In this document: positions 49,688 through 64,000 of the stretch, one piece after another | Layout of the letters: every line of letters begins with the position of its first letter | How positions within the stretch are numbered: position 1 is the first letter of the stretch | Source: Lichenibacterium dinghuense | Lineage (GTDB): Bacteria > Pseudomonadota > Alphaproteobacteria > Rhizobiales > Beijerinckiaceae | Length of the DNA stretch: 64,000 bases | Direction: 5' to 3' | Assembly (NCBI RefSeq): GCF_021730615.1 | Contig: NZ_JAJLMN010000001.1 | Coordinates: forward strand, 4,989,501-5,053,500 | Notes under the pieces: generated by a model | The model's input: the letters and a program-made list of their open reading frames with translations, nothing else | The model's database searches: none | What the model was told of the DNA's origin: nothing | Translations under genes and position numbers: made by a program

Positions 49688-49963
49688 ATGGCGAAGCGGC
49701 ACAGGCCCGAGGAGATCATCACCAAGCTGCGTCAGGTTGACGTGCTGGTGTCGCAGGGGTCGAGCGTTGCGGACGCGGTCCGCAGCGTCGCTGTGACGGA
49801 GGTCACGTACTACCGTTGGCGGCAGGAGTACGGCGGGCTGAAGTCGGACCAGGTCAAGCGGATGAAGGATCTGGAGACCGAGAACAACCGGCTTCGCAAG
49901 GCGATCGCGGATCTGACGCTCGACAAGCTCATCTTGCAGGAGGCGTCCCGGGGAAACTTCTGA
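49688..49963 (+). CDS. IS3 transposase orfA (copy B)
   Basis: A 91-residue HTH_Tnp_1 protein: AKRHRPEEIITKLRQVDVLV and the zipper ETENNRLRKAIADLTLDKLI. Nearly the same as copy A. Confidence 0.92.
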   Translation: MAKRHRPEEIITKLRQVDVLVSQGSSVADAVRSVAVTEVTYYRWRQEYGGLKSDQVKRMKDLETENNRLRKAIADLTLDKLILQEASRGNF

Positions 49964-50868
49964 GCCCCGCGCGCCGTCGTCTGTGCGTCGGCCATGTTTG
50001 TGACGTGTTGGCTGTTTCCGAGCGCCGGGCCTGCCGCGCGCTCGGCCAGCATCGGTCGACGCACAGGAAGGTGCCGCGGGGCCGGGACGACGAGGAGGCC
50101 CTCACGGCCGATCTCGTCGAGTTGGCGCGACAGTATGGCCGCTACGGTTATCGCAAGATCTCGGCCCTGCTCCGCGGGGCCGGGTGGGTGGTCAACGACA
50201 AGCGCGTCGAGCGGATCTGGCGGCAGGAAGGGCTCAAGGTGCCGGCGCGCCAGCCCAAGCGCGGTCGTTTGTGGCTGAACGACGGCTCGTGCATCCGTCT
50301 GCGGCCGGAGCGCCGCAATCACGTCTGGGCCTATGACTTCGTCGAGGACCGCACGCATGACGGACGCAAGCTTCGCATGTTGAACGTCGTCGACGAGTAC
50401 ACGCACGAATGCCTGTCGATCCGAGTCAGCCGCAAGCTGAAAGCGACTGACGTCATCGACGTGCTGTCCGACCTGTTCATCCTGCGCGGTGTGCCGGAGC
50501 ACATCCGCTCCGACAACGAGCCGGAGTTCATCGCCGCGGCCGTACGAGATTGGATCAAGGCGGTCGGCGCGAAGACCGCCTACATCATGCCCGGTTCACC
50601 CTGGGGGAACGGTTCTGTCGAAAGCTTCAACGCCCGCTTCCGGGACGAGCTGCTCAACGGGGAGATCTTCCCCTCGCTCCGTGAAGCCGAGATCATCATC
50701 GAGAGCTGGCGACGACATCACAATGCGATCAGGCCTCATGCCTCGCTCGGATATCGGCCGCCGGCCCCGGAGGTGGTGGTGCCCACCTACGCCGCTTGGC
50801 CGGCTGCGCTAACCCGACCTGCTTCGCCGGCCAAGCTGCCCGTGGCGGAACGGCCCACGGCGCACTAA
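49960..50868 (+). CDS. IS3 transposase orfB (copy B)
   Basis: The -1 frame relative to orfA. rve core with VWAYDFVEDRTHDG, IRSDNEPEFIAA (the usual DNGPEF has Gly to Glu here) and GSVESFNARFRDELL. The substitution next to the second Asp may reduce activity; copy A has the normal residue. Confidence 0.9.
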   Translation: MSPARRRLCVGHVCDVLAVSERRACRALGQHRSTHRKVPRGRDDEEALTADLVELARQYGRYGYRKISALLRGAGWVVNDKRVERIWRQEGLKVPARQPKRGRLWLNDGSCIRLRPERRNHVWAYDFVEDRTHDGRKLRMLNVVDEYTHECLSIRVSRKLKATDVIDVLSDLFILRGVPEHIRSDNEPEFIAAAVRDWIKAVGAKTAYIMPGSPWGNGSVESFNARFRDELLNGEIFPSLREAEIIIESWRRHHNAIRPHASLGYRPPAPEVVVPTYAAWPAALTRPASPAKLPVAERPTAH

Positions 50869-52636: not shown

Positions 52637-53416
52637 TCACCGCATGTGGACCCTCACGGCCGACGCGATCTCCGCCAGCGCTTTCTCGAGGACGGGATCG
52701 CCCAAGGTCAGGTGGTCGGCGAAGGCGTCCGCGAACGCATACAAGTCGAGTCGCGCCTTCATCTCGGGGCTCGTCTCGATCAGGGCCAAAGTCACTCCTC
52801 GAATCGACAGATAGACCTCGCGCGTCGCCCCCCCCTGCTGACTGGGCGCGGGGAGGACGCATGCCACCCCGTCACTCCAGTGCGGCGCCAGGAAGTCTAA
52901 AAGGGCCGCCTCCGGGTCGGCGTAGCCCAGAACTCCGAAGAGCCCGACACCGTGAAGCAGCTTCCGCGGCCCCGACGCGACGCGGCGGATCGGGCGTCCC
53001 AGGAGGATCAGGTCGGCCATGGGCGACACGGGCCCGGTTTCCTCTTCCGTCATCGGGACGTCCTCGCAGAGCCGTCCGAGGCGGCGTTCGGCAAAGGGCG
53101 TGCCGCCCAGCCCGACGAGCACGCCGATTGCGGCGCCGGCGACCAGCGCATCCTCCGTCGCAGCCGTCAGCTCCCCACGCGGGAGCTTCCGTCGACGGTC
53201 GTCGACGATGACGGCGAGAGCGTCCGCGACCGCCTTGGTCGCCTGCCGATCGAACGTCCCGGCGTCGACCCGGACGGCGACGCGAACCATGGCCTTTCCG
53301 GCCTGGCGGTGGACCGCGGCGACGGCTGCATCGTCGCGCTCGTCCAAGCCGCGGAATAACGTGTCGAGGAGACGTTCCGTCCAGGACCCGTGATGCATTT
53401 TTTGACTATATTCCAT
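52637..53416 (-). CDS. Hypothetical protein (259 residues)
   Basis: From ATG 53416 (a later Met lies six codons in). A helical N-terminal half (RLLDTLFRGLDERDDAAVAA; KAVADALAVIVDDRRRKLPR) contains a Gly-rich segment AGAAIGVLVGLGGTPFAERR; the second half (PLAD-like SPMADLILLGRPIRRVASGP, YLSIRGVTLALIETSPEMKA) is mixed alpha/beta. I do not recognise it. The next gene on the same strand is the DarT-like one 250 bp upstream, so they may be functionally linked. Confidence 0.6.
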   Translation of the reverse strand: MEYSQKMHHGSWTERLLDTLFRGLDERDDAAVAAVHRQAGKAMVRVAVRVDAGTFDRQATKAVADALAVIVDDRRRKLPRGELTAATEDALVAGAAIGVLVGLGGTPFAERRLGRLCEDVPMTEEETGPVSPMADLILLGRPIRRVASGPRKLLHGVGLFGVLGYADPEAALLDFLAPHWSDGVACVLPAPSQQGGATREVYLSIRGVTLALIETSPEMKARLDLYAFADAFADHLTLGDPVLEKALAEIASAVRVHMR

Positions 53417-53667: not shown

Positions 53668-54318
53668 TCACCAGAGCAGGTCGGGCAGCGCCTCCACCCG
53701 CGTCGCCGGGAGCTGCGCCCGCACCTTGGCGGCGGTCGCCGCGTCCTTGCAGACCACCGCCGCTGCCAGAGAGGTCGGCACGGGTCCCCATACGAGCGCG
53801 CCTGCGTCGTAGCGGAACACCTCCTCGGGATCCTCGGCGGCGGCGCGCAGGTTCCGGGTCCGGATCCGCGCCCACGCGGCCGTACCGAGCAGGTCGCGGT
53901 CACCGCTGAAGTTCGCCTCGGCGCGGGTGCACATCCGATCGACGTATACAGTCGGTCGCCCGAGGGCACGGAGCGCCTCGTGGGAGATGCAGACGGCCAC
54001 GACGTCGCGACGCTCGACCCGTGCCGCGCCCGGGTGCGCGGTGACGGAGGCGAACGCGGGCCGGGTGCATGGCGTCACGTCGAAAACCACGAACTCCCCC
54101 ACCCGGCCCGTCCAGGGGACTGGCAGGGGCTGTGCCGCCCGACGCGAGTTGAAGCGATCGATGCCGATCGCGACGAGGTCGCGACCCGCGACCGTCTCCC
54201 CGAACGGCCACAGGTAATTTTCGCGCATCATAGCGATGGCAGCCTCAACGTGCAGGCATAGGTAGAGGATCGACGCGTCTGGGTTGATTTCCTTGTAGGA
54301 TTTTGGAATGTCGAGCAT
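53668..54318 (-). CDS. DarT-like (DUF4433) ADP-ribosyltransferase-fold protein, catalytic Glu apparently replaced
   Basis: A 216-residue protein from ATG 54318. Its order follows DarT, the ssDNA thymidine ADP-ribosyltransferase toxin: an N-terminal strand/helix (SILYLCLHVEAAIAMMREN), IGIDRFNSRRAAQPLPVPWT then GRVGEFVVFDVTPCTRPAF (compare the DYVPFYFxPRSPML block), VYVDRMCTRAEANF and the terminal AGALVWGPVP (compare AEFLVxxxxPW). By this alignment the catalytic Glu is Gly173. It may be an inactive relative or use another residue. No macrodomain (DarG) antitoxin is nearby. The homology is by eye and moderate. Confidence 0.5.
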   Translation of the reverse strand: MLDIPKSYKEINPDASILYLCLHVEAAIAMMRENYLWPFGETVAGRDLVAIGIDRFNSRRAAQPLPVPWTGRVGEFVVFDVTPCTRPAFASVTAHPGAARVERRDVVAVCISHEALRALGRPTVYVDRMCTRAEANFSGDRDLLGTAAWARIRTRNLRAAAEDPEEVFRYDAGALVWGPVPTSLAAAVVCKDAATAAKVRAQLPATRVEALPDLLW

Positions 54319-55218
54319 GGCGATCACGAGCGCTGGTCGGCCACGAGGGCGACGCGAGGGGCTGTTGGGAGCGCGAGCGGACGGGGCTATGGCACTAGGG
54401 CGATGGCGTGCTGCCTCTCGCGAAGGCGCTTGCCGGCTAGGCGTCCTGAACTGAAGCTGCCCCAGACGGCATCTGGTCGTCAAGTGCTACCATCTCCTAT
54501 GACTCTTTTGAGTGACCGAACGTCCGCAATGGGCGCCAAGCCGGCATGCGCCCGGCGCCATGTCGGGCCAGTTGTTGAAGGCGGGTAGATCGGGGAACCG
54601 CCGTCGCGCGATCGAGGCGCAGGGTTGATCGGCCACGCGAACGCCGGTGAGCGGCGGCCGGGGTGACAGACCGGCGAGGCACCAGTGCCGACCTTGCCGC
54701 CTGGAGTGCCAGCGGCTCAATGCATCAGGAACTCGCCGCCCAGCGGTACGGCACCCGCAGACGGGGCCGCGGTCGTCCCCTCCGTCACGGGCCACATGCT
54801 GGTCACGACGGCCGCGGCTGACCCGACGTCGATCTAGCGCCGGTCAATCCTCGTCACCGCCAAAGGCCGGGGCGCCGCCGCTTCGTCGCCGGACTGACCG
54901 ACGCGTTGTTCACCGCGCGGGAGCCGCGAGAACCGGGGCCTGCCGCCACACGGCCGTGCACCGGCGGCTGGACAGCCGAGGCCGCCTCCGCCACTCCCTG
55001 TGAGGACGCGATCATCCACCTCGTAACGCTAGACGCACCGCTCAGATGGGCGCGATCCGTGGGGTGCAGGGCCTCCACGAGGTGCCGCGCTCGGCTGTCG
55101 ACGCCCACCGTCGGCTACTCGGCCTCTACCCAGCATTCAGGCCGTCGCTGGACCGCCCTACACTGCGAATCCGTGTACATCCCTCTGATGGACACGCCCC
55201 GGTCGATGCACCCTGGAC
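54319..55218. other. Intergenic stretch, no convincing gene
   Basis: Only short mutually overlapping frames on both strands, none with recognisable domains. The stretch is GC-rich. I see no periodic repeat here, unlike the array at 56.3 kb. Confidence 0.5.
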
Positions 55219-56281: not shown

Positions 56282-56774
56282 GTAGGGGGATACACCGTCT
56301 GTCGTCCTGCGAAAGTCGGCACCTCGCAATCGAGTGCCGTTCACGCGACAAGACCCACCCCTGCGCACCGGCGTCGCGATCGAGGCAGATGGGCGTCCTC
56401 TCGACAGAGGATCGGCTCCGCGACTTGGACGAGTTCGCGCGATCGCCGGCCATTCCCGCAAACGAGGGTCGATCCCGGGGTGGGATGGCGTACCCGCAAC
56501 CCTGCGCCGCTTTCCCGACCCGGTGCCGGTCTCGCAACTGAGACCTGTCCTCACGATCCTTGTCAGTCCTCCCGACCGACGGTCGTCCACGTGATGGAAG
56601 GTGGCACCTGCGGTGCAGAGCCGTTCTCGCGATGCACGCCTGTTCCCGCGACGCACGCCCGTTCACGAAATGCAGGGTCGTTCCCGCGACGCACGCCTGT
56701 TCACGAAATGCAGGGTCGTTCCCGCGACGATAGGACGTCCACGGGATCGTGCAGCGATTCCCCGCACATCCCTC
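56282..56774. repeat. Array of degenerate 19-bp tandem units (semi-conserved head, variable tail)
   Basis: From 56395 to 56774 there are 20 units with exact 19-bp spacing; five more (56282-56376) and one of 18 bp precede them, with ragged hints back to 56250. Head consensus is GTYCNCGCGAY, for example GTTCCCGCGACGCACGCCT, GTTCACGAAATGCAGGGTC, GTCCTCACGATCCTTGTCA, GTACCCGCAACCCTGCGCC. The last 8 bases vary. Two 38-bp pairs (56642-56717) are near-identical, showing local duplication. Since 19 is not a multiple of three it is not a repeated peptide. No cas gene is near and the units are too short for CRISPR. It may be a protein-binding array, a processed RNA or an origin-type iteron set. Confidence 0.85.
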
Positions 56775-57605: not shown

Positions 57606-58691
57606 ATGCAGGACGAAGACTACAGCGCGGCCAACCAAGGCAGCCGCGAGGACGACCAGACTATCGGAATTTTGGATGAGATGCCGGGGCTGCATCTCAT
57701 GAGCCGCTGCGATCTCGAGGCGGCGGTCGGCGGCATGTCAGTGGATGGCGACTGGGAGGATGCGGGTGCGACATCGCGTGAGGACGCCGAGCGCAAACGT
57801 GCGCTCGCGCGATTTCTCGACGATCCCGATCTGACTTGGCGGCGGCATGTCATCGCTGATGACGCCCTTGTAGCTCGTCTCGCCCGCCTCGCCGGCGAGG
57901 CCCCGAATATGGCCCGGGCCGTCGAGGTCGTGCGTCGTGCCGCGGTGGTATCGCGCCACGCACGACGGCCGCTGCGCGTGCCTCCCATCGTCCTCGTCGG
58001 CCCACCAGGCTGCGGCAAAACGAGGTATGCCAGCTTGCTGTCTAAAGCTCTCGGCGTGACCTCGACGACAGTCGTAGGCAGCACGATAACCGACATGGGA
58101 AAGATAATCGGCTATCACCCAAGCTGGAAAGGCGCCGGACCGGGGCTCGTCGCCAAATCTTTACTAGCATGCCCAACAACTTCTCCGATTGTAATTTTCG
58201 ACGAAGCTGAGAAGATCCAGGCGATCGACAGCCTGCCATCTCCGCTCGACACCCTCCTGACCGCGCTGGAGCCCGACACGGCCTGCAGTTACCAGGACGG
58301 TTACTATGAACTGCCGATGTACGCGGCAGGCATCGTGTGGATCTTCTGCGTCAACGACCTACATGGCCTTTCCGCCCCTCTGCTTGACCGCTGCGTAGTG
58401 GTGGAGGTCGCAGCGCTGTCTGGGGCGGAGCGGCATCGGACCCTCGACGATCTCGCTGCCGATATCCTGCTCGACCACAGTGTGGTCCCGGCCGGGCTCG
58501 ACGAGGACGCTCTGGCGGTGCTGGACGGCGTGGGGCTACGCCGCGCTCGAACGCTCATCGTGTCCGCCCTCGCAGGCGCGCTCGAGGCCGGCCGCGACAC
58601 CCTCACGGCCGAGGACCTCCGCGCCGCCGCGGCCCTGCTCGGCGGCGGGGCGCCCCGCCTCCGGCAACAAGCCGGTTTCGTCCACTTCTGA
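57606..58691 (+). CDS. Lon-type AAA ATPase without protease domain
   Basis: A 361-residue ATPase, ATG 57606 behind GGGAGCGAGAC. Walker A GPPGCGKT (132-139), then GSTITDMGKIIGYHPSWKGA (compare the Lon pore region), Walker B VIFDEAEK (196-203), PLDTLLTALEPDTACSYQDG, sensor FCVNDLHGL and arginine-finger LLDRCVVVEV. These match the Lon AAA module in order; the N-terminal LON and C-terminal Ser/Lys protease domains are missing. Likely a remodelling motor or switch. It heads the operon with the ExoVII-like genes. Confidence 0.85.
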   Translation: MQDEDYSAANQGSREDDQTIGILDEMPGLHLMSRCDLEAAVGGMSVDGDWEDAGATSREDAERKRALARFLDDPDLTWRRHVIADDALVARLARLAGEAPNMARAVEVVRRAAVVSRHARRPLRVPPIVLVGPPGCGKTRYASLLSKALGVTSTTVVGSTITDMGKIIGYHPSWKGAGPGLVAKSLLACPTTSPIVIFDEAEKIQAIDSLPSPLDTLLTALEPDTACSYQDGYYELPMYAAGIVWIFCVNDLHGLSAPLLDRCVVVEVAALSGAERHRTLDDLAADILLDHSVVPAGLDEDALAVLDGVGLRRARTLIVSALAGALEAGRDTLTAEDLRAAAALLGGGAPRLRQQAGFVHF

Positions 58692-58848
58692 AGCGGCACG
58701 GGGAAGCCCAGCGGCTCCAAGCAGCGCGGTGTTGCCGCGCCGAGCGCGCGGGCGGCTCTCGGCGGCGGACGGAGCAGCTGAGTCAGTGGCGGCTTCGAGC
58801 AGACAGCATGGGGGACGAGGAGCGTACCCCCCAACGGGAGATACAACG

Positions 58849-59226
58849 ATGGATAATGACATACCAGCCGAACGTCGGTGGCGCTATGCCAATGCCGCGG
58901 CGGAGGAGAGCCGAACGGCGGACCTACTGACCACAGCCAAGACCGCCGCAGCCGATGCAAGGCTGCTGCTCGCCACCGGCGAGGTACGACTCGCAGGCGG
59001 CGCCACCACGGTGATGATACGGGCCATGCTCCTGCACGCGGCGACTCCGGCCGGCAGCGAAAGTACGCCGGCCGAGGTCGATATTCGGATCAAGAGGCGG
59101 AGCGCCAAGACACTGGAGCTCGCCGGAGCATCGCTCGCGGCCGCCATGGTGCGCGCCGCAGCCGCCGAGGACGCTGCAGCGATGGGGAGCCTGTCGGTGC
59201 GCGCGCCTCGGGAGGACGCACCGTGA
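58849..59226 (+). CDS. Hypothetical helical protein (125 residues)
   Basis: ATG 58849 follows GGGAGATACAACG. Helical, Ala-rich with RRWRYANAAAEESRTADLLT, AADARLLLATGEVRLAGGAT and IRIKRRSAKTLELAGASLAA. No family recognised. A 157-bp gap separates it from the AAA gene; its stop overlaps the next start (GTGA). Confidence 0.6.
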   Translation: MDNDIPAERRWRYANAAAEESRTADLLTTAKTAAADARLLLATGEVRLAGGATTVMIRAMLLHAATPAGSESTPAEVDIRIKRRSAKTLELAGASLAAAMVRAAAAEDAAAMGSLSVRAPREDAP

Positions 59227-59606
59227 CCGCGGGCGCCACGAGCCACCGCCGAAACTCGCCTTCCTCGGACGAACGCGCGTCGCAGCGGGCTGCGTCGGCG
59301 CCCGCGTCGCTGGCGGAGCAGATCGACCGCATCGCTCACGATCTCGCGGCCCACCGTTGGCTTACGGCCAGGGCCGACGCACTCGCCCACGGTGCTGCGC
59401 TGGCCGCGGCACAGGGCGCGCTCGCCCTCGCGACTGCATCACTGTGCTCACCCAGAGAGCGCAACCTGCGCCGCACGGCCCTCGACGCGGCCTTGCCCGC
59501 TCTGGACCGGGCGGGCCTCGCCCACGTCGCCGACCTCGTCGCTGCCGCCCTCGCGCTGGAGCAGCATACGATTACACTGACGCACACGTGCAGTGAGCTG
59601 CAATGA
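59223..59606 (+). CDS. Hypothetical helical protein (127 residues)
   Basis: GTG 59223 overlaps the previous stop. ASLAEQIDRIAHDLAAHRWL, ALAHGAALAAAQGALALATA and LDAALPALDRAGLAHVADLV suggest an all-helical bundle. No recognised domain. Stop overlaps the next ATG. Confidence 0.58.
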   Translation: MTAGATSHRRNSPSSDERASQRAASAPASLAEQIDRIAHDLAAHRWLTARADALAHGAALAAAQGALALATASLCSPRERNLRRTALDAALPALDRAGLAHVADLVAAALALEQHTITLTHTCSELQ

Positions 59607-59980
59607 GCCGGGACGAGCCGATAGGGGGCGACGGTCCGAGCGTCGCCGACCGAGACCGTTACGCGGCCGCCCTCGAAGCTGCGGCCGATCCGGAACTTAC
59701 CTTTAACTCCATCCACACGGACTTCAAGCGCCTGGAAGCCGCGGTCTGTGCCGGCGAGCTTGCCGCTATAGCGCTCGCAGCCCGCGACCTCGAGTTGCAC
59801 TCCCTTCAGCTCTGTGTCGCCCCGGCCGTGTCGGCTGCGGCGGCGGACAACCGGCGGCGGGTCGCCATCATCATCTCCGGCTGGGCTTGGCCTCGCCGGC
59901 CCGCGCTGGCCGCGAGCCTCGAGCTGAATACGAAGCAGGAGGCGCGGCGCTGGGGCGGCCCGGTCGCGGGTGAGGCGTGA
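59603..59980 (+). CDS. Hypothetical protein (125 residues)
   Basis: ATG 59603 overlaps the previous stop (ATGA). DRDRYAAALEAAADPELTFN and LEAAVCAGELAAIALAARDL are helical; VAIIISGWAWPRRPALAASL is a hydrophobic turn. No family recognised. Confidence 0.55.
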   Translation: MSRDEPIGGDGPSVADRDRYAAALEAAADPELTFNSIHTDFKRLEAAVCAGELAAIALAARDLELHSLQLCVAPAVSAAAADNRRRVAIIISGWAWPRRPALAASLELNTKQEARRWGGPVAGEA

Positions 59981-60158
59981 GGCGGTCCGACAGGCTCCGC
60001 GCGCATGTGGCTGATGCGAGCCACGCGACGCGCAATCCGCCGGGCGACACGGGTTGAGAGCCGCAGCAGCGACGGCAGCTAGGTCGGCGGAGCCGAGGGA
60101 TGATGGATCGAGGGCGCGAGGGGGCGGGCCCCGATGGGAAAGACGGGAGGAGACAAGC

Positions 60159-60980
60159 ATGGAACATAAGATGAACATGACCGAACCAAGGCTGAGCGGG
60201 GCGGCCGCCGCGGCGGTGGCGCTGCTGGCGGGGCTCGGCGCCGCGGAGCGGCGCGCAGCGCTGGAGGCGCTCGGCATGACCGAGGCTCGCCGCATCTGGA
60301 CGCCGAGGGCGCCGGGCGAGCTGCCGACCCTGACGGCACTCGCGGCAGGGCGCGACCAAGACGCGGTGTACGGGTCGGCCGCTTGGGCCGCGTCGTATCG
60401 TCGGGAGCGAACCGTGGTCGTCTACGTACTGCAGGCGCCTGGGCTCGGCGCGCTGTCGGCGAGCCTCGGAGGCCTCAGTTTGGCCAAGGTCGGCACCGCT
60501 GCGATTGAGAACCTCGCGCAACGCGTCGCTGAGCTCGGGCGGTGCGGGTACGGCGCCTGGGTGCGCGGTCCGCGTCGCTACGAGCGCGAGGCCGGGTTCG
60601 ATTTATTCGTCCCGCCGCCACGGTTGCAACTCGCGCCGCAGCACCCGGCCAGCCCGTTGCGCCTCTGCCTGCATGGGATCGAGGTGGACCTGCCGTCCGC
60701 TCTGTCACCCGAGCAGTTCGAGGCGGCGCTCAACCGTGCGCTGCTACCGCTTCGGCTGCAAACCGTGGCCGGTACGGAGGCTGGGCACGCGGTCTGCGCC
60801 CGCGCCGGCGTCGATACCGCGACCCTGCACCGCTTTTACCGGCATGGCCCGCGGATCAAGGCGGCGACTGAGATTGCCCTCCTTCGGCCCCAGGCCGACA
60901 TCGGTGCCCTCGCCCGGCTCTGTGCCGATATCGTGATCGATACCGTGATGGGGCTGTTGCAGAAGCGACCCCTCCGGTGA
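60159..60980 (+). CDS. Hypothetical protein (273 residues), partner of the XseA-like gene
   Basis: ATG 60159 behind GGGAGGAGACAAGC. Middle part is alpha/beta (RTVVVYVLQAPGLGALSASL; GGLSLAKVGTAAIENLAQRV; RYEREAGFDLFVPPPRLQLA; LCLHGIEVDLPSALSPEQFE), and the C-terminal part is helical (HRFYRHGPRIKAATEIALLR). I do not recognise it. Its stop overlaps the XseA-like GTG at 60977, so the two products are likely made together. Confidence 0.65.
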   Translation: MEHKMNMTEPRLSGAAAAAVALLAGLGAAERRAALEALGMTEARRIWTPRAPGELPTLTALAAGRDQDAVYGSAAWAASYRRERTVVVYVLQAPGLGALSASLGGLSLAKVGTAAIENLAQRVAELGRCGYGAWVRGPRRYEREAGFDLFVPPPRLQLAPQHPASPLRLCLHGIEVDLPSALSPEQFEAALNRALLPLRLQTVAGTEAGHAVCARAGVDTATLHRFYRHGPRIKAATEIALLRPQADIGALARLCADIVIDTVMGLLQKRPLR

Positions 60981-62791
60981 GCGCGGTCGATGAGCGCATC
61001 GAGCAGGCGGGGCAAGGACCCGCGCCGGCGTCTCGTGCAGCGCCGAAGCGGACCGACAGCATGGCTTCGTCAAGCCCAGATCCGGATGCCGCGATCCCGC
61101 TCGGACATCTGCTGCAGCGTGCGTCTCACGCCGTGGCGGTCGGCCTGCCGGACGCTGTCTGGGTCGTGGCGGCCGTCGCGGCGGTCAAGCCGGCGCGCGG
61201 CGGCCACTCCGTCGAGGTCGTCGAGCCGGACGTGTCCCGAGCCGTGGCGGGCCTGCTGAGGACCTATCTGCCGGACGGCGTGATCGAGAAACTGCGGCGG
61301 GGCACCGAACTGCCGATCGCCGCCGCGGACCTCGTCGGCATGACGATCGTCGTCCGCGTCGCGGTCGAACTGCATCCGCGGTGGGGGCTGTCGGGGCGCA
61401 TCCTCACCCTCGGGCCTGGGCTCGAGGAGTCTTTGGCCAAGCGGGCGCTGGACGCCACGGTCGCCCGACTTCGGCGCGATGGCCTGTTCGACCGTCAGCG
61501 ACTGCTGCCGGCGCCGCGCGACGTGACACGCGTGACGGTGGTGCATCCGCCCGCCGCGGCAGGGTGGGCCGACATCGCCCGGGAGCTCTCGCGCTGGATG
61601 GAGATTGGGCTCATCACGATGCGGTCCATACCGGTCCCTTTCGAGGGACAGGGGGCCGCAGCCGGGATCGCGGCCGCAGTTGCACGCGCCACGGCGGCCG
61701 TCGATGGCGCGAAGCCCGATCTCGTGCTGCTGTGCCGAGGCGGGGGGGCGGCTGCATCGTTGGGCTCGCTGGACGACGAGGCACTGGCTCGGGCCATCGC
61801 CACCGCTCCCGTGCCGGTCGTCACCGGTCTTGGACACGCATCGGACGGAAAGACGCTGGCCGACATGGTCTCGGCGCATCCCGTGGACACGCCGAGCAAG
61901 GCCCTATCCCTGGTTCGGGACCTGATTGTCACTCCAGCGCGGCGAGCACGGGCCGACCATGCCGCGATCCTGGCGGCCGTGTCGACCGCCGTCGAACGTC
62001 CTGCGCCGAGGCTCGCGGCGCTGGAACGGCTCGCCACGGCCGAAGCGCTGCGGCAGGTCGAGGCGACGTCGCAACGGCTCGATCGCTGCTGGGGCGCGGT
62101 GCGCGAGGCGGCCGAAGGTACCCGCGGGCGGCTGACCCGCGTCGACGACGGTCTCGACCGCATGGCGGCCGAGATTATGAGGACGTCGCCGTCGCTCGTC
62201 GCCCGGACGGCGTCGGAGCTTGCCACGCTGATGGAGGCGATCCGGGCCCGTGCCCGACGGCTTGGCGAGGGGGCGGACGACGGCGCCCGTCATATCGCCG
62301 TCGCGGCGGGTCGGGCGGCGTCGCTCGTCGACACGGCGGACGTCGAAGTTGCGACACTCGCCAGGACGGCCGGGATGGCGGCCGCCGCCCATCTCGATCG
62401 CCTCGTCGCAGAGCTGGACGGGCTCGCCCGATCGGTGCGCGAGCGCGGCCAGCAGCACGTCACCCGGGCCGACGACGGAGCTGCCGTTCTCGGCGGCATC
62501 GAGGCCTCTGTCGCCGGAACGCTCCGCGCTCAGGATGGCGCCGTCGCGCGGCTGCGCGAGACGATCGAGACCGCCGTCGACCGGCATGTCGATGCGGCCG
62601 GGGCTGCCCTGGACCATGCCCTGGCGACGCTCGACGGCGCCGACCCGGTCCGGGTCCTGCGCCTCGGCTACGCGCTGGTGATGGACGGCCAGGGCCGTGT
62701 TGTCACCTCGGTCGCGGCCGCCCAGGCGGCCTCGACCCTGATCCTCACCTTCGCGGACGGCACGATCGCCGTCCGACCCACCCAACCCTGA
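60977..62791 (+). CDS. Exonuclease VII large subunit-like nuclease (divergent XseA)
   Basis: A 604-residue protein. The N-terminal 40-160 region corresponds to the OB-fold (WVVAAVAAVKPARGGHSVEV, WGLSGRILTLGPGLEESLAK); the catalytic part follows XseA order: DGLFDRQRLLPAP, PPAAAGWADI (Asp199), CRGGGAAASLGSLDDEALAR (Arg254) and GLGHASDGKTLADMVSAHPV (His287, Asp290), then DTPSKA. Residues 310-570 are a long coiled coil, ending LRLGYALVMDGQGRVVTS, the XseA terminal strand block. All residues I can equate with the active site are kept. Canonical XseA is about 450-530 residues; the surplus is in the coiled coil. ExoVII trims single-stranded DNA from both ends. Confidence 0.88.
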   Translation: MSAVDERIEQAGQGPAPASRAAPKRTDSMASSSPDPDAAIPLGHLLQRASHAVAVGLPDAVWVVAAVAAVKPARGGHSVEVVEPDVSRAVAGLLRTYLPDGVIEKLRRGTELPIAAADLVGMTIVVRVAVELHPRWGLSGRILTLGPGLEESLAKRALDATVARLRRDGLFDRQRLLPAPRDVTRVTVVHPPAAAGWADIARELSRWMEIGLITMRSIPVPFEGQGAAAGIAAAVARATAAVDGAKPDLVLLCRGGGAAASLGSLDDEALARAIATAPVPVVTGLGHASDGKTLADMVSAHPVDTPSKALSLVRDLIVTPARRARADHAAILAAVSTAVERPAPRLAALERLATAEALRQVEATSQRLDRCWGAVREAAEGTRGRLTRVDDGLDRMAAEIMRTSPSLVARTASELATLMEAIRARARRLGEGADDGARHIAVAAGRAASLVDTADVEVATLARTAGMAAAAHLDRLVAELDGLARSVRERGQQHVTRADDGAAVLGGIEASVAGTLRAQDGAVARLRETIETAVDRHVDAAGAALDHALATLDGADPVRVLRLGYALVMDGQGRVVTSVAAAQAASTLILTFADGTIAVRPTQP

Positions 62792-62811
62792 CCCAGCAAC
62801 GGAGAACCACC

Positions 62812-63039
62812 ATGAAGCCCAACGCTCCCGCCAGCACCGAAACCTACGCGAGCGCGTATACCCGCCTCGCCTCCATCGCCGAAAAGCTCAGGAGCACCGG
62901 CGCCACGGCCAACCTCGACAGCATCGTCGACGACCTTCGGGCCGCCCGCGCCGCTCATGCCATCTGTAAGGCGCGGCTCGACGCCATCCGCCGCGAGGTC
63001 GACGCCGAGGTCGAAGCTGCCGGCGAGGTCGCGCAGTGA
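62812..63039 (+). CDS. Exonuclease VII small subunit-like protein (XseB-like)
   Basis: A 75-residue helical protein 20 bp after the XseA-like gene, GGAGAACCACC upstream. SAYTRLASIAEKLRSTGATA, NLDSIVDDLRAARAAHAICK and ARLDAIRREVDAEVEAAG match the XseB pattern (helix, charged turn, helix with CxARLDxxxxxV). The order large then small subunit in one operon supports a real ExoVII pair. Confidence 0.8.
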   Translation: MKPNAPASTETYASAYTRLASIAEKLRSTGATANLDSIVDDLRAARAAHAICKARLDAIRREVDAEVEAAGEVAQ

Positions 63040-63415
63040 CGGACACCGACGTCGTCGAGCTGCCGCGGCGGACGAAGCCGCTGTTCCGCCGCAGCCTTGG
63101 CGCTTGCACCCGGTCCATCGCCGGTCAGGCGGCACCTGCCATGCCCCGTCTCGCCCTGGTCGTGTCGACGCCGCCGCCAGCGGTGGCGCAGATGCCGCCG
63201 TGTGCGTGCCCGCGACCGCTTTCGCGTCGTGGGAGGACCATGCCGTCGAGGTGTGCGCCGATCGGGAAGCGAAATGGCTGCTCACCTTGAGCATGCAGGT
63301 CCGGCATCTCGACGAGGCCCGAGCAGACCTGCTCCACGCTGCGGCTTCGGCTCTCGTCGCTGCCGCCATCGACGGTGTCGACAACGTAGGGAGGCACGAT
63401 GACCTGACGTTCTGA
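63036..63415 (+). CDS. Hypothetical protein, probable frameshift near 63155
   Basis: GTG 63036 overlaps the XseB-like stop (GTGA) and reads TDTDVVELPRRTKPLFRRSL for about 40 codons; the plausible continuation is in the -1 frame, VDAAASGGADAAVCVPATAF to VRHLDEARADLLHAAASALV, ending at 63415. No slippery motif is evident, so a base error or mutation in GC-rich DNA is likely. No family recognised. Confidence 0.45.
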
Positions 63416-63646
63416 GCGGCTCGGTCCAAGCACGGCGGTAGACGGATGGAGCTGAGTGAATGGGGCGGAGGCGTAATCCCTGCGGGCGCCAGAGCGGCTC
63501 GGCGACGCCGTGCACGTCACGGGCGGGGCCGATGGGATCCGCCTGGAGTGGCGAACACTGCACATCGACGGTGCGGGGAGGGCGGAGAGACGACCGGGTG
63601 TGTGGGTCGGGATGGACCGACCCCGGGGTAGAAAAGGAAGGAAGAC

Positions 63647-64000
63647 ATGCACGACACGATGCAGACGTCCAACGCCATGGTTGCCGACCTCGTGCGCGCC
63701 TTCTTCGGCGTCGAGCCCGCCACCATGGCGTCGCTGGCCCACGGTGACACGGTGGTCCGCACCCGCTATGAGCCGGAAGACGGTCCGACGACCGAACCGC
63801 TTGACGGCGTGGAGGTTCTGCTGCGACGCGCGGTCGCCCTGTGCTGGAAGCTTCGCGATCATCATGGCGCCGTGATGCTCGTCACGGAACGGCAGGCGGC
63901 GGCCGCGGGCTGGCCATGCGCGGCCCTCGCCAACCGATGCGTTCTGTTCGCGTGGACGTTGTCCCTGACCATGCGGGTAGATCCGGCATCGCCGCTTCTG
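63647..64000 (+). CDS. Hypothetical protein, runs off right edge
   Basis: ATG 63647 follows AAAGGAAGGAAGAC. The frame is open to the window end (118 codons): HDTMQTSNAMVADLVRAFFG, DTVVRTRYEPEDG, GVEVLLRRAVALCWKLRDHH, RQAAAAGWPCAALANRCVLF. No family recognised. It seems to continue the ExoVII-like operon after a 231-bp gap in which I see no gene. Confidence 0.6.
   Translation, partial: MHDTMQTSNAMVADLVRAFFGVEPATMASLAHGDTVVRTRYEPEDGPTTEPLDGVEVLLRRAVALCWKLRDHHGAVMLVTERQAAAAGWPCAALANRCVLFAWTLSLTMRVDPASPLL

Follow-up and report, generated by a model that had tools for sequence, protein, structure and literature searches.

In a 64-kb stretch of the Lichenibacterium dinghuense genome (contig NZ_JAJLMN010000001.1, positions 4,989,501 to 5,053,500; hereafter the window), a compact operon with all of its genes on one strand (57606-63039, +) encodes a Lon-type AAA ATPase, four proteins that we call g2, g3, g4 and g5, and a divergent exonuclease VII (ExoVII) composed of a large subunit, XseA, and a small subunit, XseB. 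Coordinates without a prefix are positions in the window, and those prefixed with L or G:C refer to fetched loci or genome contigs. We found that the protease-less, ring-type AAA ATPase and g5 are a conserved pair that takes one swappable single-stranded DNA (ssDNA) exonuclease, either ExoVII or exonuclease I (ExoI/SbcB), and that this module is multi-copy, patchily distributed and situated in islands with integrases and known defense genes. Judged from sequence comparison, the module appears to be a mobile, AAA-controlled nuclease system whose most likely role is anti-phage or anti-plasmid immunity, a reading to which we assign a probability of about 0.5. Immunity against phages or plasmids is favored because of the defense-gene neighbors and the mobility of the module.

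The family-wide search returned 76 matches to the signature protein g5, 67 of which were examined in 62 loci; the other nine scored at most 92 bits, and several were partial. An AAA gene lies on the same strand within 8 kb of 49 of the 67 g5 genes, an SbcB-like exonuclease within 10 kb of 29, a divergent XseA within 8 kb of eight, and an AAA gene together with an ssDNA exonuclease near 36. When six genomes were searched in full, 19 of the 20 AAA matches above 200 bits stood beside a g5 gene and every one of the 19 g5 genes had such a partner, with the next AAA class, true Lon included, scoring no more than 139.8 bits; the AAA profile was built from g5-adjacent AAA genes, and the evidence lies in this sharp score gap rather than in the bare count. 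Distance correlations over 27 loci gave r values of 0.43 for g5 and AAA, 0.36 for g5 and SbcB, and 0.23 for AAA and SbcB, values that were reached by 0, 0 and 2 of 2000 permutations, respectively. The three proteins are co-inherited, with reshuffling, and the conserved core of the module is the AAA-g5 pair, not ExoVII. The original prediction had singled out the operon as a candidate undescribed system. The conservation of its neighbors in other genomes supports that candidacy, with the emphasis shifted to the AAA-g5 core and ExoVII recast as a swappable part.

ExoVII is the partner in the window’s genus and ExoI/SbcB the partner in Bosea and others; overall, an SbcB/ExoI-like exonuclease is found in most loci, and some loci are without a recognized exonuclease. 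Within genus g12, which we infer to be Bosea, most loci share the order cl8, SbcB, one to six cl1, AAA and g5, the cl1 genes encoding tandem, diverged proteins of approximately 316-333 aa between SbcB and AAA (98 members in 31 loci; e.g. L050:4379-7574) for which no family was found. The SbcB-like proteins match Exonuc_X-T_C and RNase_T, and the DEDDh residues, whose roles in these proteins we presume, are kept in all five aligned sequences. They also match the PADLOC model RTasSbcB (1.3e-61 to 5.2e-88) and so resemble the reverse transcriptase-associated SbcB of DRT defense; unlike the latter, they occur together with AAA, g5 and cl1 proteins in tandem (a reverse transcriptase was not specifically searched for), and the window operon carries no SbcB. 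A PolB-like 3′-5′ exonuclease (1.1e-38) adjoins the AAA-g5 pair at L056, and at the g26-type loci (L122-L126, L128, L129) g5-AAA pairs occur with no SbcB or XseA found.

The distribution of g5 bears on whether the operon is simply an ordinary, duplicated DNA-repair operon that has come to sit in a variable region by chance. ExoVII and ExoI are repair enzymes, and canonical xseA and xseB genes exist in the same genome, as this explanation would have it. However, the g5 profile detected members in only 40 of 397 host-family genomes and 11 of 43 genera, in three of 397 genomes of an order-wide draw and in two of 299 across the phylum (both in the host family, one being the window’s own genome), with the proviso that the initial filter evaluates few candidates in each genome and may miss distant members. 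Such a patchy distribution disfavors vertically inherited core-gene status. Up to six g5 genes occur in one genome, the loci are linked to integrases and defense genes, and two non-homologous exonucleases exchange beside the same AAA-g5 pair, all of which lead us to regard a chance repair operon as very improbable. A Burkholderiales g5 match (L007) was discarded as a false positive, its open reading frame (ORF) being FAD monooxygenase-like from sequence, with no module genes nearby.

The host genome itself carries a collinear second copy of AAA-g2-g3-g4-g5-xseA-xseB (L005), 1.6 Mb away on the same 5.86-Mb contig. Protein identity between the copies is 76% for AAA, 68% for g2, 60% for g3, 63% for g4, 77% for g5 and 57% for XseA, and the corresponding ratios of nonsynonymous to synonymous polymorphism (pN/pS) are 0.32, 0.47, 0.50, 0.49, 0.38 and 0.59. 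Purifying selection on six operon genes is thereby measured, and the collinear second copy with these ratios shows the operon to be more than a chance grouping. Elsewhere in the genus, the order in G111 is g5-xseA-xseB-AAA, and an 8.2-kb unit of that genome (L042, L044, L130) bearing two g5, xseA, xseB and AAA is repeated at approximately 92% identity with differing flanks.

The window’s ExoVII shares with E. coli ExoVII the PF02601 catalytic domain, an adjacently encoded small XseB and a match to the solved structure 8txr. Asp199, Arg254, His287 and Asp290, which we take to correspond to the catalytic residues of the E. coli enzyme, had been noted as kept in the window protein and are invariant in all six divergent XseA sequences. 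Unlike the known enzyme, the window form belongs to a clade of its own, is clustered with AAA and g5 and has a longer arm than 8txr; the previously proposed extra coiled coil corresponds to an insertion that is longer than in E. coli ExoVII and of putative coiled-coil nature. No OB Pfam domain was detected in the window XseA. It scores 184.0/184.4 bits against TIGR00237, narrowly above the cut-off of 180, with the forms from copy 2, G086 and G111 falling below, and the window XseB scores 16.1 bits against TIGR01280 (cut-off 35) and 35.3 bits against NF045605 (cut-off 40). A normal xseA (G000:C1:1345329-1346786; 430 bits, cut-off 180) and a normal xseB (G000:C1:5241896-5242054; 76.8 bits, cut-off 35) are both found elsewhere in the host genome, and canonical xseA is present in all six genus genomes searched. 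With this canonical xseA present, the host genome does not depend on the XseA-like protein as its sole, orthodox XseA. A tree of 23 XseA sequences agrees, separating the six divergent ones as a single clade (support 100/100) from the 17 canonical ones; the clade sits on a long branch, and the program flagged the meeting of long branches. Among 249 genomes of the order, a divergent-XseA profile exceeded 200 bits in the window’s genome only, the next best match reaching 89 bits, and G086 and G111 were added when six members of the genus were searched separately.

A different account of the ExoVII genes would be an abortive, toxin-antitoxin-like device, in which free XseA would be toxic, XseB and g2-g4 would neutralize it, and AAA and g5 would release it on infection. 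The close placement of xseB behind xseA accords with this, and XseA-mediated cell death reportedly occurs in E. coli, as Jung et al. 2015 (cited in PMC8989520) states in its title. Yet SbcB, with no XseB, takes the place of the exonuclease in most loci, so that an XseB-type antitoxin is not constant. Copy 2 carries an insertion of approximately 0.84 kb (L005:11010-11853), with inverted ends and, from sequence, transposase-like ORFs, that splits xseB and leaves xseA open; strong toxicity would be difficult to reconcile with this arrangement, barring compensation by a different XseB. We consider such a device improbable.

The AAA ATPase of the window matches PF00004 (9.2e-11) and, with 71.8 bits against a cut-off of 608 (4.3e-20), positions 351-528 only of the Lon model TIGR00763; its nearest solved structures are the AAA modules of Lon (7.6e-43). 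Its likeness to Lon protease ends there, as it is a stand-alone protein of 361 aa in which neither the protease domain nor the Lon N-terminal domain was matched. The Walker A motif GPPGCGKT, the Walker B residues DE199-200, Arg262 and Arg312 are invariant in 14 of 14 aligned AAA sequences. A weak PADLOC match to IetA (3.8e-4), confined to 25 P-loop residues, recalls IetAS and other AAA-based defense systems, from which the module differs in its partner proteins. A further 119 plasmid records matching the AAA were set aside as members of the broad Lon-AAA family: of the five inspected, the four with annotated genes carried neither xseA nor the module, and the fifth was unannotated.

For g5, the conserved residues fit a GIY-YIG-like domain without proving one, and catalysis is putative. 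Conservation over 67 sequences is 0.90 at Y89, 0.91 at K110, 0.93 at R122, 0.95 at Y131, 1.0 at R225 and 0.95 at E238. An hhalign comparison of g5 with the T5orf172 profile gave 44-63% (E about 1e-4) over 22-33 columns only, against at most 2% for controls, and this weak match spans the motif Y...KIG.T...R. Like T5orf172/GIY-YIG nucleases, g5 conserves Tyr, Lys, Arg and a later Glu; unlike them, it falls below the Pfam cut-off and aligns over no more than those columns. No T5orf172 match was found in a set of 23 g5 members, g5 had no match among PDB structures, and a single-sequence structure model of g5 (pLDDT 34.8) was uninformative.

If the module is an immune system, g5, as a GIY-YIG/T5orf172-like protein, would recognize or nick DNA that is invading or being replicated, the AAA ATPase would remodel the complex or load it onto that DNA, and the exonuclease would then destroy the exposed strand; XseB and g2-g4 may restrain the nuclease or act as a scaffold until a trigger arrives. 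Work on DRT9, in which host ExoI can act as the gate of an immune system, provides a precedent for an ssDNA exonuclease in immunity, although the role of ExoI there is the opposite of the one proposed for the module (PMC12483538).

The neighborhoods of the module count in favor of immunity. Beyond the window end, approximately 1.6 kb past g9, lies a Mokosh system (L004:9270-14275; MkoB 4.7e-86, MkoA 6.1e-176), and upstream of the operon the window encodes a DarT-like ADP-ribosyltransferase (53668-54483, -; Pfam 1.4e-9, PADLOC 2.7e-16), whose 259-aa neighbor (52637-53416) matched no family. Other loci adjoin DruE (E 0), a type III-like restriction enzyme, type I restriction-modification genes (in two loci), an HsdR-like protein (3e-49), and GajA and GajB (2e-257 and 5e-237). 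Among the remaining PADLOC-tested neighborhoods, no defense gene was found at L039 or L118, and L127 gave a GajB-like helicase match only.

The main rival, which we rate as rather unlikely, is that the module serves maintenance or mobilization of its carrier element, with AAA, g5 and the ssDNA exonuclease processing or protecting ssDNA during transfer, integration or replication. Several observations favor it, and the relaxase and plasmid findings among them also weigh against an immune role. A MobA/MobL relaxase (2.6e-13) lies immediately before copy 2 and falls into one cluster with genes of the Bosea-type loci L111 and L112. On plasmid pNBC550, g5 is near repABC and mob genes; this plasmid was the only match of a Bosea-type g5 query in PLSDB, where a window g5 query found none, and on G712:C2 (genus g12) g5 occupies the same place as on the plasmid. 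Tyrosine-integrase clusters, named from sequence with two proteins (L047:7080 and L049:4043) confirmed as Phage_integrase, occur in 28 of 62 loci, which the immune reading can claim as well, and the repeated G111 unit likewise points to mobility. Other findings also count against the immune reading. Of the 67 g5 genes, 18 are without AAA nearby, some at contig ends. At L038 (G086), the 20 kb covered contain g5-xseA-xseB and no AAA. The host genome's third AAA (L162:7961-10539), adjoined by g4-like and g8 relatives, has no exonuclease, and its weak g5 relative is 9 kb off. The resemblance of g5 to T5orf172 stays below the Pfam cut-off: three g26-type g5 proteins have T5orf172 as their best Pfam match at E 0.003-0.012, with 18.5 bits at most against a gathering score of 20, and six other g5 proteins of the same scan do not. 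Scans of IMG/VR found no relative. Against maintenance, neither relaxases nor integrases accompany the module consistently (34 of 62 loci lack the integrase clusters c5/c12), the ends of the G111 unit show no terminal repeats, and known defense genes stand beside seven of ten PADLOC-tested loci, a proportion based on visually selected neighbors without a control set. Three candidate relaxases were not counted: the 800-aa and 1563-aa proteins at L056 and L122 had no solved-structure match, and L125:1118-3472 had no relaxase family.

The enzymes are of known kinds; their combination, and the exchange of ExoVII and ExoI around AAA-g5, are new within the searchable literature, and the module is undescribed in the open-licence PMC literature. 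More tentatively, it could be an undescribed modular immune system with a fixed AAA and GIY-YIG-like core, armed with one of two unrelated ssDNA exonucleases, a domesticated ExoVII or ExoI, and with small helical partners particular to each (g2-g4 or tandem, diversified cl1). ExoVII, treated as a housekeeping repair enzyme, is here one movable component of a module of several genes and gives way to ExoI in sister modules. Were that module immune in function, it would illustrate directly how ssDNA repair nucleases are recruited as effectors, and swapping the exonuclease would allow the roles of g5 and the motor to be tested.

Table 1. Genes of the window operon and of the region immediately downstream.
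Feature	Position	Strand	Family matches and relatives
Lon-type AAA ATPase, no protease domain, 361 aa	57606-58691	+	PF00004 and partial TIGR00763
g2, 125 aa	58849-59226	+	No family in Pfam, NCBIfam, PADLOC; 68% to copy 2
g3, 127 aa	59223-59606	+	No family in Pfam, NCBIfam, PADLOC; 60% to copy 2
g4, 125 aa	59603-59980	+	No family; 63% to copy 2; weak relative of L038:13051-13869
g5, signature protein, 273 aa	60159-60980	+	No family in Pfam, NCBIfam, PADLOC for the window protein
Divergent ExoVII large subunit (xseA-like), 604 aa	60977-62791	+	PF02601 1.2e-49
Divergent ExoVII small subunit (xseB-like), 75 aa	62812-63039	+	NF045605 9.7e-9
g8, apparently frameshifted	about 63036-63415	+	Relatives L038:14085-14363, L162:10150-10539
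g9, start of a 348-aa protein, membership uncertain	63647-64000	+	Runs past window end (L004:6648-7694); relative L038:15216-16052

The original prediction described XseA-like and XseB-like genes with an AAA ATPase, unrecognized proteins and overlapping start and stop codons, and the gene limits bear this out (Table 1): 4-nt stop/start overlaps (GTGA/ATGA) occur at four junctions (g2/g3, g3/g4, g5/xseA and xseB/g8), and g2-g5 are without a family. No PADLOC model matched any of the seven operon proteins, except for the weak AAA P-loop matches, and a PHROGs search with g2 returned one unknown family (E 0.014). Profile comparison did not support homology among g2, g3, g4, g8, g9, cl1, cl8 and XseB (best 12.6%), and a weak cl8-g3 relation was discarded for want of such support. 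The frameshift in g8, seen against its L038 relative, could be decay or a sequence error. A 19-bp array had also been assigned to the system. This 38-bp tandem repeat of 19-bp units (56621-56729; 2.3 copies, 98%) is local, unrelated and outside the operon, and no further copy turned up elsewhere in the genome when 0-1 mismatches were allowed. An IS3-type transposase-like ORF, identified from its sequence only, lies close to the region's upstream end at 49816-50868 (+).

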